From an uncultured Ectothiorhodospiraceae bacterium (lineage in GTDB: Bacteria; Pseudomonadota; Gammaproteobacteria; Nitrococcales; Nitrococcaceae): a stretch of DNA of 64,000 nt. The notes under the pieces were generated by a model that saw only the letters and a list, made by a program, of their open reading frames with translations, ran no database searches and was not told the DNA's origin. The DNA lies in contig CAJXSH010000002.1 in the NCBI GenBank assembly GCA_913061005.1, positions 62,001 through 126,000 of the forward strand, read 5' to 3'. Positions 24,939 to 31,367 of this stretch are shown here, in pieces. A program made the translations under genes and the position numbers. The stretch's first letter is position 1; each line of letters starts with the position of its first letter.

Positions 24939-26138
24939 GGCGGGGGCCGCCAGCGGCTCGCCGCCATCCATGCCCAGCGCCTGGCGATAGGTTCGCCGGG
25001 CGTGTTCCTGTTCGCCAAGGCGCTCGTAGAGATCCGCCAGAAGGCGCAGTGCCGCTGGCTCGCGCCCTCGGGCAACGGCCGCCTCGAGATAGTTGCGCGC
25101 CTGCCCCCAGTGCTCGGCGGCCAGGGCCTGTCGGCCGGCGGCCAGCAACAACACCGGGTCGTCCGGGCGCTGCTGCAACCACTCGGCGATCGGTTGCAGC
25201 GCCTTCTCCGGCGGGTCGGTGCGAAGCTCACCGAACACCTCCACCAACGCCGGCTCCCATCGACGCTTCAACCACCGTCGAAGCCGCTTTTCCGCTGTCG
25301 CCGGGCAGTCTGCGGCGATCAATGCCCGGGCAAACCGCGCCTGCAGATGCGGATCGCGACGCCGCGACCGGGGCAGGCCCTTCCAGACCCGCTCGAGCGC
25401 ATCGGCCGAGGTCTCGACCCCCAGTTGGGTCAGCTGCCGGTCGAAGGCTCGACGCTCGATGCTGGCCAGGCGGTTTTCGTCGATCGCCTCGCTGCGGCGC
25501 AGGTCGGGCAAAAGCTCAATAAGCCGTTGTTCGTCACCCACCGCCTGCAGTGCATCGGTGAGCAGCATCAGCACCCGCGGATTGCCCGGGGCACGCTCGC
25601 GCAACCAACCCAGCGTGGCGAGGGCCTCTTCCCACTGACCGGCGTCGACCTGAAGCTGGGCCTTGACCACGTTGACGGCCACCCGGGCGCGGTCGTCCCG
25701 AAGGTCGGCATCTGCCAGCCGCTGGTCGCGACGCGTCCAGTCGCCCTGACGATGGGCGGCCAGGGCCGCCAGTAGATGATGGACCACCGGCTGCGACGCG
25801 GCCTCGGCGGTGGTCTGCAGATGCCGCTCGGCCGCCGCGTAGCGGCCCTCGGCCAGCTCGATGAGCCCATCGACCAGCTCGCGGTTGGCCCGTACCCGGC
25901 GATGGCGCTGCCAGCGGCCGCGAACCCGTCCCGGGGCGCGGAAGAGCTTTTGCAAAAGCCCCACCGCCAGCCAGATCAGCACACCGGCCACGATCACCGC
26001 CAGGGCGGCGACAAACAGACTGGCCTGGACGGTAAGCTCTCCGAGCCGCAGCAGGACAAACCCCTGCCGGGCCTCCAGCCACAACGCACCGGCCACGCTC
26101 ACGAGCAGCAGCAGGACCAGCAGGATCACGCGTCGCAT
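24918..26138 (-). CDS. hemY: HemY-like TPR membrane protein of the heme operon
   Basis: The protein has 406 residues. Two N-terminal transmembrane helices (about residues 4-22 and 40-64) are followed by a cytoplasmic/periplasmic helical TPR domain (for example RAVLIAADCPATAEKRL and EHWGQARNYLEAAV). This is the proteobacterial HemY_N/TPR family, unrelated to Bacillus HemY oxidase. Its exact role in porphyrin export or assembly is not settled. The ATG shares one base with the hemX stop (TAATG), and hemY is last in the algR-like/hemC-hemD-hemX-hemY order. Its end overlaps qorA by 21 bases. Confidence 0.92.
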   Translation of the reverse strand: MRRVILLVLLLLVSVAGALWLEARQGFVLLRLGELTVQASLFVAALAVIVAGVLIWLAVGLLQKLFRAPGRVRGRWQRHRRVRANRELVDGLIELAEGRYAAAERHLQTTAEAASQPVVHHLLAALAAHRQGDWTRRDQRLADADLRDDRARVAVNVVKAQLQVDAGQWEEALATLGWLRERAPGNPRVLMLLTDALQAVGDEQRLIELLPDLRRSEAIDENRLASIERRAFDRQLTQLGVETSADALERVWKGLPRSRRRDPHLQARFARALIAADCPATAEKRLRRWLKRRWEPALVEVFGELRTDPPEKALQPIAEWLQQRPDDPVLLLAAGRQALAAEHWGQARNYLEAAVARGREPAALRLLADLYERLGEQEHARRTYRQALGMDGGEPLAAPASDGQNG

Positions 26139-27319
26139 TACTGACTCACCCCGTCATCCAGTACCGGCGCCAGCAGCGGCCGGATGGCCGGCGGATCGAT
26201 GGCCACCCGACGCTCGGCAAGGGTGGCGAGGGTCTCACGGGCGGCGATCACCGCTTCGGCACCGGGATCAAAATAGGCGGCCACCCAGTCATCCAGCCGT
26301 TCAATGGCGCTTTGATACGCGGCCGTCTCGCCACGCAACGCCGACACCCGGGCCGATTCGATCTGCAGCAGCAGGTTCTGCTCGAGCAAAAACCGGGCAT
26401 TGGCGTCGGGGAGCGGCTGCACATCGCGGTCGCGGCTGACCACCACCAGCTCGCCCAGGCCCTGTCGCAAACGCTGCCAGGCCCGCTCCAGCCGACCCTG
26501 CCAACCCTCGCTGACGCCGCCATCCTCGCTCGGCCCGGTGTCCTTGGCCTCGGCGCGGGTCAGGGCAGAGGCGGCCAGCGGCAGGCGCTCGAGCTGGCCG
26601 GCCAACTCGTCCAGGGCCGTGTTGATCCGTCGGCGCTGCGGCCGCTCGACATCCAGAAGTCGGTCCACCGCCGCGGCGATGGCTTCGCGACGGTCCACCC
26701 CGGCACCGCCCAGGCCGGCCAGCCGCTGATCAGCCCGTTCCAGCGCCTCCAGGGCCCCGCCGACATCGTCCATCAGCTCCAGACGCTGAATAGCGAGCTG
26801 GGCCAGGTAGGCGGCCTCGGCCAGGCGCCAGTCATCGGCATCGGACTGGGCCCGACGGTAGAGCTGATCCACCCGGTCGATGAGGGTCTCGCGCTCGGAC
26901 TGGCCATCGGCCAGCCGGTTTTCGATGCGCGCCAGGGACTGGAGTCGCGATTCGAGTTGTTCGTTGAGGTTGCTGACCCGCCCGGAGAGTTCGCCCAGCG
27001 CGGTGTCGTGACGATCGGCAAGGCGCTCCAGTGACGACTGGCTGACCATCGCTGCGGTTTGCGCCTGCAACGACTGCATCTGCCAGTACAGGTACCCGAC
27101 ACCGGCAGCCGTCGCAACCAGGGCCACCCACAGCACGGCCAGCCCCCATCCGCGGCGGCGGACCGGAGCGCTGGCGGTCTCGTCCCCGTCGCCGGTCCGG
27201 GATCCCTGACCGGCGTCGCCCGTGTCGGTGGCTTCATCGGTGGATCCGGCCTCCGCGGTAACCTCCACCGGTGGCTGGTCGGCCGGTTTTTCCTCCGGCT
27301 GGTCCTTCTCTTCAGTCAT
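26138..27319 (-). CDS. hemX: HemX-family membrane protein
   Basis: The protein has 393 residues. An acidic, disordered N-terminus (about 60 residues rich in Glu, Asp, Thr) precedes one transmembrane helix (VLWVALVATAAGVGYLYW). After that come a coiled coil (LNEQLESRLQSLARIENRLAD) and a helical domain of the HemX family. It is often labelled uroporphyrinogen III methyltransferase, but it has no SAM-methyltransferase fold, so that label should not be used. The start overlaps the hemD end by 8 bases; a longer form starting inside hemD is rejected. Confidence 0.92.
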   Translation of the reverse strand: MTEEKDQPEEKPADQPPVEVTAEAGSTDEATDTGDAGQGSRTGDGDETASAPVRRRGWGLAVLWVALVATAAGVGYLYWQMQSLQAQTAAMVSQSSLERLADRHDTALGELSGRVSNLNEQLESRLQSLARIENRLADGQSERETLIDRVDQLYRRAQSDADDWRLAEAAYLAQLAIQRLELMDDVGGALEALERADQRLAGLGGAGVDRREAIAAAVDRLLDVERPQRRRINTALDELAGQLERLPLAASALTRAEAKDTGPSEDGGVSEGWQGRLERAWQRLRQGLGELVVVSRDRDVQPLPDANARFLLEQNLLLQIESARVSALRGETAAYQSAIERLDDWVAAYFDPGAEAVIAARETLATLAERRVAIDPPAIRPLLAPVLDDGVSQ

Positions 27320-28067
27320 CTTTTTGCTTCTCCAGGGCCTGCTCCAGCGCCGCCAAAAGGGCCGTGTCGTCGGCACCGTCGGCGACCATCACCGCGGCCC
27401 ACCCGGCCTGGCGGGCAGCCGCGGCCACCCGTTCGCTGACAACAACGAGTGCGGCATCCATCACCCACTCTAGCGCGGCGGGTGTGGCCATCGCGAGCAG
27501 CCCCTGCAGACCCGCGACACTGGTCACAACGGCTGCATCCAGTTGCACGGCCAGCCAATCGTCCGGGACATCCAGACGGCGAGCCGCCGGCATGCGCCGG
27601 TAAACCGCCAGCTCTTCCAGTATGACACCCCGGGCCTGCAATGGCGCCTGCAGCCGACGTCGCCCCCCCTCGCCGCGGATGATCAACACCCGCTGCCCCG
27701 GGGCAGGATCAAACGCCGGCTCGGCGAGCAATGCCTCGGCGCCGCCCCCGCGGGTTGGCGCCACCGTCACGGTGACCCCGGCCTGGTTCAACGCCGACGC
27801 CGTACCCGGGCCAACCGCCGCCACCGCCCCTTCTGCCAGCTGCGAGCCGGCCAGTGCGGACAACCCGTAGCGAACGGCATTGGGACTGATGAACACCACC
27901 CAGTCGGGCTTTCGCGTTGGCGGCGCCTGAACCGGCAGCGGTTCGATGGCCAGTGTGGGTCGCTGCAGCACCAAAGCCCCGCGCGAGGCCAGCATCCGGC
28001 CGAGTGCCGCCGCCTGACCGGCGGGGCGGGTCAGCAGGATACGGGCATCCACCAGACCCCGACTCAA
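27312..28067 (-). CDS. hemD: Uroporphyrinogen-III synthase HemD
   Basis: The protein has 251 residues and cyclises hydroxymethylbilane with inversion of ring D. The two-lobed HemD pattern is visible: ILLTRPAGQAAALGRMLASRG at the N-terminus, VVFISPNAVRYGLSAL near residue 58, AVGPGTASALNQAG near 88 and VVTSVAGLQGLLAM near 180. It overlaps hemC by 4 bases (ATGA) and hemX by 8 bases, which is tight translational coupling. Confidence 0.93.
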   Translation of the reverse strand: MSRGLVDARILLTRPAGQAAALGRMLASRGALVLQRPTLAIEPLPVQAPPTRKPDWVVFISPNAVRYGLSALAGSQLAEGAVAAVGPGTASALNQAGVTVTVAPTRGGGAEALLAEPAFDPAPGQRVLIIRGEGGRRRLQAPLQARGVILEELAVYRRMPAARRLDVPDDWLAVQLDAAVVTSVAGLQGLLAMATPAALEWVMDAALVVVSERVAAAARQAGWAAVMVADGADDTALLAALEQALEKQKDD

Positions 28068-28987
28068 TGGACCTCGGCCAGGATGTCGCCGGCCCCCTGG
28101 GCCAGCAGGTCGGCGGCAACGCGATCACCCAGCGCCGGTCCCTCATCGCGGGGCGCCCGCCCCTCGGCCCGCAACACGCGGCGGCCGTCGCGACTGGCGA
28201 CCAGGGCCCGCAACCACAGGGCATCCCCCTCCAGCACCGCATAGGCGGCCAGCGGTACATGGCAACTGCCCTCGAGCCGGGCATTCACCGCGCGCTCGGC
28301 CGCCACCCGATCATGGGTGTCGGCGTCATCCAGCGTGGCAATGAGCCGCTGTACCTCCGCATCTCCCGCCCGGCACTCGATACCCAGCGCGCCCTGGCCC
28401 ACCGCCGGCAGGCTGTCTTCGGGCGGCATCACCCGGGTGATGCGATCGCCCATCCCCAGACGTCGCAGCCCCGAAGCCGCCAGCACAATGGCGTCAAACT
28501 CACCACGATCGAGCTTTGCCAGCCGTGTCTGCACATTGCCGCGGAGCGACTCGACGACCAGATCCGGGCGACGGGCGCGCAGCTGACATTCGCGACGCAG
28601 GCTTGCCGTGCCCACCCGGGCGCCTTCGGGGAGCTCGCGGACATCGCCGTAGCGGGCCGAGACAAAGGCATCACAGGGGTCTTCGCGGTCGAGGATGACC
28701 GGCAGGCGGAAGGCCTCGGGCACCAGAGCGGGCACATCCTTCATGGAGTGGACGGCGATATCCGCCCGGCCTTCGAGCATGCCCTCCTCGAGCGCCTTGA
28801 CGAACAACGCCTTCCCCCCGACGGCCATCAGTGGCCGATCGGTGATCTCGTCTCCCCGGGTGGACATGCGCACCAGCTGGATGTCGAGGCCCGGGTGCCG
28901 GTCCTGCAAGCGTCGGGCCACATGTTCGGCCTGCCAGACAGCAAGCGGGCTTCGACGGGTGGCAATACGCAGTGGTTCAGGCGGCAT
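28064..28987 (-). CDS. hemC: Hydroxymethylbilane synthase (porphobilinogen deaminase) HemC
   Basis: The protein has 307 residues. Diagnostic segments are IATRRSPLAVWQAEHV at residue 7, GGKALFVKALEEGML near 57, VHSMKDVP near 80, GTASLRRECQL near 128, and LEGSCHVPLAAY near 240, whose cysteine carries the dipyrromethane cofactor. It polymerises four porphobilinogens in heme synthesis. It is preceded 83 bases upstream by the algR-like gene, the same order as in Pseudomonas. Confidence 0.97.
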   Translation of the reverse strand: MPPEPLRIATRRSPLAVWQAEHVARRLQDRHPGLDIQLVRMSTRGDEITDRPLMAVGGKALFVKALEEGMLEGRADIAVHSMKDVPALVPEAFRLPVILDREDPCDAFVSARYGDVRELPEGARVGTASLRRECQLRARRPDLVVESLRGNVQTRLAKLDRGEFDAIVLAASGLRRLGMGDRITRVMPPEDSLPAVGQGALGIECRAGDAEVQRLIATLDDADTHDRVAAERAVNARLEGSCHVPLAAYAVLEGDALWLRALVASRDGRRVLRAEGRAPRDEGPALGDRVAADLLAQGAGDILAEVH

Positions 28988-29070
28988 GGTCGGGCGTGTT
29001 CTTCGATGGCGGTCACGGACCGGGTAATGATGGCCGCAACCATACCGCCTGCGGCGTTGGAGAGAAAATA

Positions 29071-29805
29071 TCAGGCGCTTCCGGCCTGCTTGAGCCAGCG
29101 GCGGACCTGCGGCAGCCGGCGCCGACTGACCGGGACGCGATCGTCGCAGCCATCGATGAGCGCATGGGTGCGACCATCCCAGTCCTTTTCCAGCCCCCGC
29201 AGGGCGTCCCGCGCCACCAGGGCGCTGCGGTGGACACGCAGAAAACGTGGCTCGAACTCTTCTTCGAGCTGGCAGAGCGATTCCTCGATCAGGTCTTCGC
29301 CGTCGTCGTGCTGGACCGTGACGTATTTGTGTTCGGCCTTGAGGTAGCGAACCCCATCGACCGGGATAAGGTTGAGTCCGCCAGGCCGACGCGCCAGCAG
29401 ATGTCGGCGGCCACCGCGCTCGAGCATTGACTGGATGGCATGGGCCTGACCGGTGGTCAATGGCCGCGCCCGGTGCAACGCTGTAACCAGCCGCTGGGGC
29501 GAGACGTTATCGAGCACGTATTCCATGCCGATGGTCTCGAGCGTGGGTCGCACCGGATCGTCAAAACCGCTTGCAAGCACGATGGCAGGCCCGGGCTGGC
29601 ACTGGCCAAGCGCCAGAACGGCCTGCAGATCCCGCTCGTCACGAATGCCGATGACCACGGCATCGGCGTGATCCGCGCGATGGCGATCCACCGCATCGGC
29701 GGTCGACTCGAGCACTCCGTTGATCGAGCAATCACGCCCCTTGGCGGCAAGACGGGCGAGTCGCTGACGCAGTGACCGGTTCTCACATGCAATAACGATC
29801 TTCAT
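29071..29805 (-). CDS. AlgR-type LytTR regulator with a degenerate (non-phosphorylatable) receiver domain
   Basis: The protein has 244 residues. The C-terminal LytTR DNA-binding domain (about 135-240) is intact: [36 protein letters not shown]. The N-terminal half keeps the length and secondary-structure rhythm of a CheY-like receiver but not its chemistry. The acidic pocket VDDE is IACEN, the phosphoacceptor Asp expected in VLLDIRMPG is Gly53 in [10 protein letters not shown], and the conserved Lys near residue 100 is Asp in VLDNVS. Position between argH and hemC matches Pseudomonas algR, but no algZ/fimS sensor kinase gene is present beside it. Start is the ATG after a TGCCTCC-complement (GGAGGCA) ribosome-binding site. 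Confidence 0.82.
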
Positions 29806-29933
29806 CGGTCTGCCTCCTTGATGTCGTGGAAAAGCGCCGGCGGCCGAGTCCGTTCGGCGCGGGCGAAAGGATGCGCCGGCCGGCGTCGGAAATCCGCCAA
29901 CCGGTTCACAACCGACGAACAACGGCGGGGGGC

Positions 29934-29942
29934 TGGTATACT
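29934..29942 (+). promoter_or_regulatory. Extended -10 promoter for argH
   Basis: TGGTATACT is a sigma70 extended -10 element (TGn plus TATACT), 30 bases before the argH ATG. There is no good -35 at 17 bases, as is common for extended -10 promoters; a TTCACA at 29905-29910 is 26 bases away and too far. The same TGGTATACTC core occurs before the rhodanese gene. Confidence 0.55.
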
Positions 29943-29972
29943 CACGTCACCGATATCGAGCACGGATCCAGC

Positions 29973-31363
<1,391 letters not shown>

Positions 31364-31367
<4 letters not shown>

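Follow-up and report, generated by a model that had tools for sequence, protein, structure and literature searches.

In a Spiribacter-like genus of small, halophilic Gammaproteobacteria, the response regulator AlgR has been kept while its kinase, AlgZ (FimS), and the residues of its phosphorylation chemistry have been lost together. The LytTR DNA-binding domain of these AlgRs is under strong purifying selection, the constraint on the receiver-derived domain is weaker but real, and an AlgR-like box is conserved upstream of algR. We consider it somewhat probable that, after the loss of AlgZ and PilY1, AlgR has become a constitutively competent, dimeric, self-regulating transcription factor that works without a kinase and is controlled through its abundance. 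In such a course of events, the kinase gene would have been cleanly deleted from argH-algZ-algR-hemC in the ancestor of the genus, with PilY1 lost as well, and AlgR, then phosphorylation-incompetent, would have been retained as a kinase-free regulator. Its pseudo-receiver would mainly act as a fixed dimerisation scaffold that keeps the LytTR domains positioned for DNA binding, AlgR would bind a box upstream of its own promoter (a direct repeat with a period of 20–21 bp), and the output would be set by the amount of AlgR made, not by phosphorylation. On this reading, the genus AlgR would dimerise, bind DNA, and regulate its own gene. Dimerisation without phosphorylation is common among pseudo-receiver regulators, some of which appear to be regulated by amount (PMC12632262).

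Regulator gene and its locus

The gene lies on the minus strand of the window (the whole 64,000-nt stretch of DNA that was analysed), with its ATG at 29805 and its stop codon at 29073–29071 (Table 1); the plus-strand frame at 29071–29805 is no gene. It is identified as an algR orthologue by its argH/algR/hemC-hemD locus and by the tree, in which its LytTR protein groups with AlgR. There is no algZ between argH and algR in the window: the Met of argH at 29973 is 167 bp from algR, leaving a gap of 29806–29972. A hemY-like gene also occurs downstream of algR on the minus strand. No LytS/AlgZ-type kinase (PF06580) was found anywhere in the source genome, a 1.65-Mb draft that is 84.7% complete.

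Table 1. Features of the algR locus in the window, with the strand and the supporting observation for each
Feature	Coordinates	Strand	Observation
algR orthologue, 244 aa	29071..29805	minus	pseudo-receiver and LytTR DNA-binding domain
Pseudo-receiver, residues 1–118	29452..29805	minus	alignment, residue table, no Response_reg match
LytTR DNA-binding domain, about residues 136–240	29086..29400	minus	PF04397, E = 5.7e-19
argH	29973..31367	plus	divergent neighbour; marks the ancestral algZ-algR locus
hemC	28064..28987	minus	ancestral downstream neighbour
hemD	27312..28067	minus	downstream of hemC
hemX	26138..27376	minus	downstream
AlgR-like box TGTGAACCGGTTGGCG, 16 bp	29895..29910	minus	kept in 14/14 genomes of the genus
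Upstream half site CCGTTGTTC	29917..29925	minus	identical to P. aeruginosa algC-ABS2
algR-hemC gap	29011..29070	minus	conserved sigma70-like -10, TATGGT

The residues of a canonical receiver (acidic pair, Asp, Thr/Ser, and Lys) are not those of the source AlgR: C7, E8, G53, S79, and D99 stand in place of D7, D8, D53, T81, and K101 of AlgR (CEGSD versus DDDTK), and the alignment shows a two-residue deletion after position 53. A Pfam profile search detected the LytTR domain at 68.6 bits, and the receiver domain (PF00072) gave no match even at E = 5; the PF00072 score was 15.2 bits in AlgR of the basal genus member G011 versus 88–92 bits in kinase-bearing relatives. An AlphaFold2 model built from four input sequences had a pLDDT of about 55 in the receiver domain, too weak to show a pocket, and a PDB sequence search with AlgR returned no useful match. 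An earlier reading of this DNA from its sequence only had described an AlgR orthologue at the argH/hemC-hemD locus without algZ, which gene order and the tree bear out; the Gly53, IACEN pocket, and Asp in place of Lys that it reported agree with the residues above, and its coordinates, given without a strand, are correct on the minus strand.

Loss of the kinase and of the phosphorylation site

Across the genus, algR was present in 14 of 14 genomes, six of which are 99–100% complete in at most 3 contigs, and a profile search revealed no PF06580 kinase in any of them (the source and 13 others). All 14 AlgRs have lost the phosphorylation site: the D,D pair is gone throughout, with C or S at position 7 and E, S, R, or A at position 8; the phosphoacceptor Asp is replaced by Gly in 12 and by His in 2; and the Lys position is occupied by Asp, Glu, or His. 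The 12 core members read C-E-G-x-D/E, with C7 and G53 invariant and the former Lys position always acidic, and the basal pair reads S, E, H, A, H at the five positions; 12 of the 14 carry the two-residue deletion after position 53. In contrast, D, D, D, T, and K were intact in all 44 kinase-bearing AlgRs checked (16 relatives from the same order and 28 across the class), and a coupling of this kind is far beyond chance. The tree placed the genus AlgRs in one clade (support 100/100) with a stem length of 0.96 changes per site. Their argH-algR gaps, which contain no algZ remnant, measure 143–184 bp. G007 is the only exception: its gap has taken up an unrelated gene (L082, G007:C88, about 590–1570) that encodes a secreted beta-propeller protein of about 320 aa, which by eye looks like virginiamycin B lyase.

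The state of the source AlgR might be ascribed to a sequencing or assembly error, or to a recent mutation in a single strain, given that the source genome is a draft of 37 contigs. However, the state is shared by another 13 genomes, among them single-contig assemblies and independently named MAG records; being common to 14 genomes of the genus, it leaves this explanation with practically no probability, and we rejected it. The sequence-only reading had named two observations that would speak against it, an algZ homologue elsewhere in the genome and close relatives retaining the Asp; no such homologue was found, and Asp53 is missing from every member of the genus. Control of AlgR by another kinase of a non-LytS type, or by another phosphodonor, was also considered, as Spiribacter has further two-component systems (GlnLG and PhoBR, the only ones given in the first Spiribacter genome paper, PMC3832224) and a few members retain Thr at the T position. 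Nevertheless, Asp53, a canonical acidic pair, and the Lys are found in no member of the genus, and with all of these lost, phosphorylation is impossible by the known chemistry of Asp (Ser/Thr apart); such control is therefore very unlikely. A second, weak LytTR protein (E = 4.6e-8; G008:C1:950714-950956) is unique to G008 within the genus, and a takeover by this protein was rejected for that reason.

Of 370 gammaproteobacterial genomes drawn evenly from across the class, 206 carried AlgR, and 202 of these also had a PF06580 kinase. The four AlgR carriers without a kinase were two members of this genus, G193, and G143. In G193, 295 bp separate algR from a contig end, argH is missing from the stretch, and the receiver is intact, so its kinase is probably just absent from the assembly. 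G143 is a single-contig 2.0-Mb genome from another family in which about 135 bp is all that separates argH from algR and no PF06580 kinase was found; its genus-mate, G335, has an algZ-sized argH-algR gap and a detected kinase. The receiver of G143 reads E-Q-D-T-K, with an acidic pocket of E and Q for D and D, and Asp53, Thr, and Lys kept. G143 is thus an independent loss of algZ with a decayed acidic pocket, and together with the genus it indicates that kinase loss and receiver decay coincide in two lineages, at two stages; the coincidence of the two losses proposed from the source sequence is therefore seen across the genus and again in an unrelated genome. A receiver-like stretch was seen near argH in both G143 and G335 (L127 4683–4997; L128 8911–9228).

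None of the 14 genomes of the genus had PilY1 (PF05567), nor did G143; it was present in each of the five other genera sampled from the family of the genus. FimS of P. aeruginosa has been proposed to monitor PilV, PilW, PilX, and PilY1 (PMC5979040). The proposition that PilY1 loss always brings AlgZ loss was rejected: 30 kinase-bearing AlgR genomes had no detectable PilY1, and the receivers were intact in those whose AlgR was checked. Loss of PilY1 alone is therefore insufficient, and kinase loss is a better predictor of receiver decay than PilY1 loss. PilM is very divergent in the genus, matching at E values of about 1e-13 to 1e-38 where present (for example, G000:C4:45504-46382 and its equivalents), whereas nearly all relatives reach 1e-100 or better. 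This points to a type IV pilus that is strongly remodelled or reduced. Genes resembling fimT and pilE adjoin ispH in the genus, and with the retained PilM they suggest that a pilus of some kind may persist, perhaps one for DNA uptake. The minor pilin locus by ispH (L083 812–1908) seems to be down to one FimT/GspH-like and one PilE-like gene and is without a pilVWXY1 block.

Selection on the two domains and the box upstream of algR

In kinase-bearing relatives, the receiver and LytTR domains were equally conserved (identity 0.67 versus 0.66). Among the 12 core members of the genus, by comparison, identity was 0.56 in the receiver and 0.81 in LytTR, and the median omega was 0.27 and 0.12, respectively, in keeping with the good conservation of the LytTR domain that had been noted from the source sequence. 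The invariant C7, G53, and acidic residue at the Lys position may be structural or may hint at a new role. If the latter, the pseudo-receiver could have gained a new direct input (a metabolite, a metal, redox state, or a partner protein) through the pocket C7-E8-G53-D/E99, and the purifying selection that still acts on the receiver, with omega about 0.27 overall and 0.08–0.21 in the closest pairs, would suit such a role. The basal pair, however, has S, E, H, A, H at the five positions, the DD+19 Cys of Hp1021-type redox pseudo-receivers occurs in some members only, the structure model is too weak for a pocket to be seen, and the locus has acquired no new association with a ligand-linked gene. 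We therefore regard a new direct input as unlikely, and its more specific form, in which the genus pseudo-receiver is a new ligand-binding sensory domain making AlgR a one-component sensor, as more doubtful still. For the rewiring to a metabolite or redox signal suggested by the sequence-only reading, we found no positive evidence.

Upstream of algR, every one of the 14 argH-algR gaps of the genus contains TGTGAACCGGTTGGCG or a close variant, which in G007 stays on the algR side of the inserted gene. LytTR proteins commonly recognise direct repeats spaced by about two turns. Across the genus, the argH-algR gap was most similar to itself at -20, and a CATnnT element lies 21 or 22 bp downstream of the box in 12 of the 14 genomes; in the window, CCGTTGTTC is exactly 21 bp upstream of the box core, with weaker equivalents in some other members. 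In a comparison with a published list of P. aeruginosa AlgR sites (PMC4064291), two genomes had a box core identical to the fimU site (fimU-ABS1) CCGTTTGGC, eight differed from it at one base, two at two bases, and the two basal members at three. An 8/9 match has a chance of about 1% in a random 16-mer, so the assignment of the box to AlgR is likely, not proven; with matches of 8/9, 7/9 (two), and 6/9 (the two basal members), the box could belong to another factor. Nine relatives showed no such box upstream of their algZ.

A search with up to 2 mismatches located one site per genome before algR in 13 genomes, the algR box of G004 falling outside this cut with 3 mismatches. Other matches were mostly in long open frames, none away from algR was common beyond close relatives, and the pilin genes that are left (fimT/pilE, next to ispH) had no consistent box. 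The lack of a regulon beyond algR itself at this cut counts against control through AlgR abundance, as does G143, which has no box, and the invariance of C7, G53, and D/E99 in the core members might reflect a new role for the former pocket.

Alternatively, AlgR could be a decaying relic with little function of its own, kept by its place before hemC through promoter or operon effects. The long stem branch, a receiver unrecognisable to Pfam, and the lack of a visible regulon would fit a relic, as would the cotranscription of algZR and hemCD in P. aeruginosa (PMC5790918). However, algR is intact in every genome of a streamlined genus, the omega of LytTR is low, the box before algR is conserved, and hemC, with a conserved -10 sequence (TATGGT) in the algR-hemC gap, probably has its own promoter; we consider the relic explanation improbable. 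The place of algR before hemCDXY had also been taken to suggest heme control. Since the same order occurs in kinase-bearing relatives, the gene order is ancestral and does not support heme control by position, and the promoter-like sequence of hemC also argues against it.

Relation to known regulators

The genus system resembles AlgZ(FimS)/AlgR of P. aeruginosa and other Gammaproteobacteria in its locus order (argH-[algZ]-algR-hemC-hemD), its receiver and LytTR architecture with a conserved LytTR domain, and a box core similar to AlgR sites (CCGTTTGGC, CCGTTGTTC); it differs in having no AlgZ, PilY1, or canonical phosphorylation residues and in its own conserved box before algR. Unphosphorylated AlgR still regulates part of its regulon in the P. 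aeruginosa D54N mutant, for which activation of algD and algC has been described (PMC4064291), indicating that AlgR can act without phosphate. D54N, however, is a laboratory point mutant with an otherwise intact receiver and the kinase present, whereas in the genus the site has gone by evolution.

Pseudo-receivers make up about 6% of bacterial receivers, and the origin and control of pseudo-receiver regulators is an open question (PMC12632262). Like ChxR, HP1043, FleQ, GlnR, and RamR (reviewed in PMC12632262), the genus AlgR is a kinase orphan with a DNA-binding output and a receiver-derived domain without phosphorylation chemistry; unlike them, it has LytTR as its output domain, where winged-helix or other outputs are usual, and it derives from a traceable canonical AlgZ/AlgR pair with intermediates. 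It shares a kinase-free, receiver-like input domain with the redox orphan pseudo-receivers Hp1021 of H. pylori, Cj1608 of C. jejuni, and RitR of S. pneumoniae, but the Cys position of Hp1021 and Cj1608 (DD+19; C26) is not conserved in it, being absent in G008, G006, G009, G003, G005, G007, and G011. Among the papers open to full-text search, we found no report of AlgR orthologues of such a kind. Pseudo-receiver regulators are already known, and an AlgR-derived pseudo-receiver without a kinase is a new variant among them.

The locus presents a natural decay series of one gene at one address, from intact receivers (the 44 with a kinase) through a partly decayed one (G143, E-Q-D-T-K) to receivers that have fully decayed by two routes within a single genus (S-E-H-A-H and C-E-G-x-D/E). 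The series suggests that the input signal (PilY1), the kinase, and the receiver chemistry are lost together and the output domain is retained, giving a step-by-step record of the passage from a two-protein signalling system to a stand-alone regulator. The core genus receivers are missed by PF00072, the standard receiver model and the basis of the sequence survey in PMC12632262; surveys built on this model therefore undercount such cases.

A neighbouring branch of the family (G028, G034, G036, G038, and other f5/g12–g17 genomes) has lost both AlgR and the kinase, and G028, the one tested, is also without PilY1, making it a full-loss counterpart to the genus. In G220, the best PF06580 match is unusually weak (8.4e-10) and AlgR is intact, possibly reflecting a kinase that is in decay or frameshifted.
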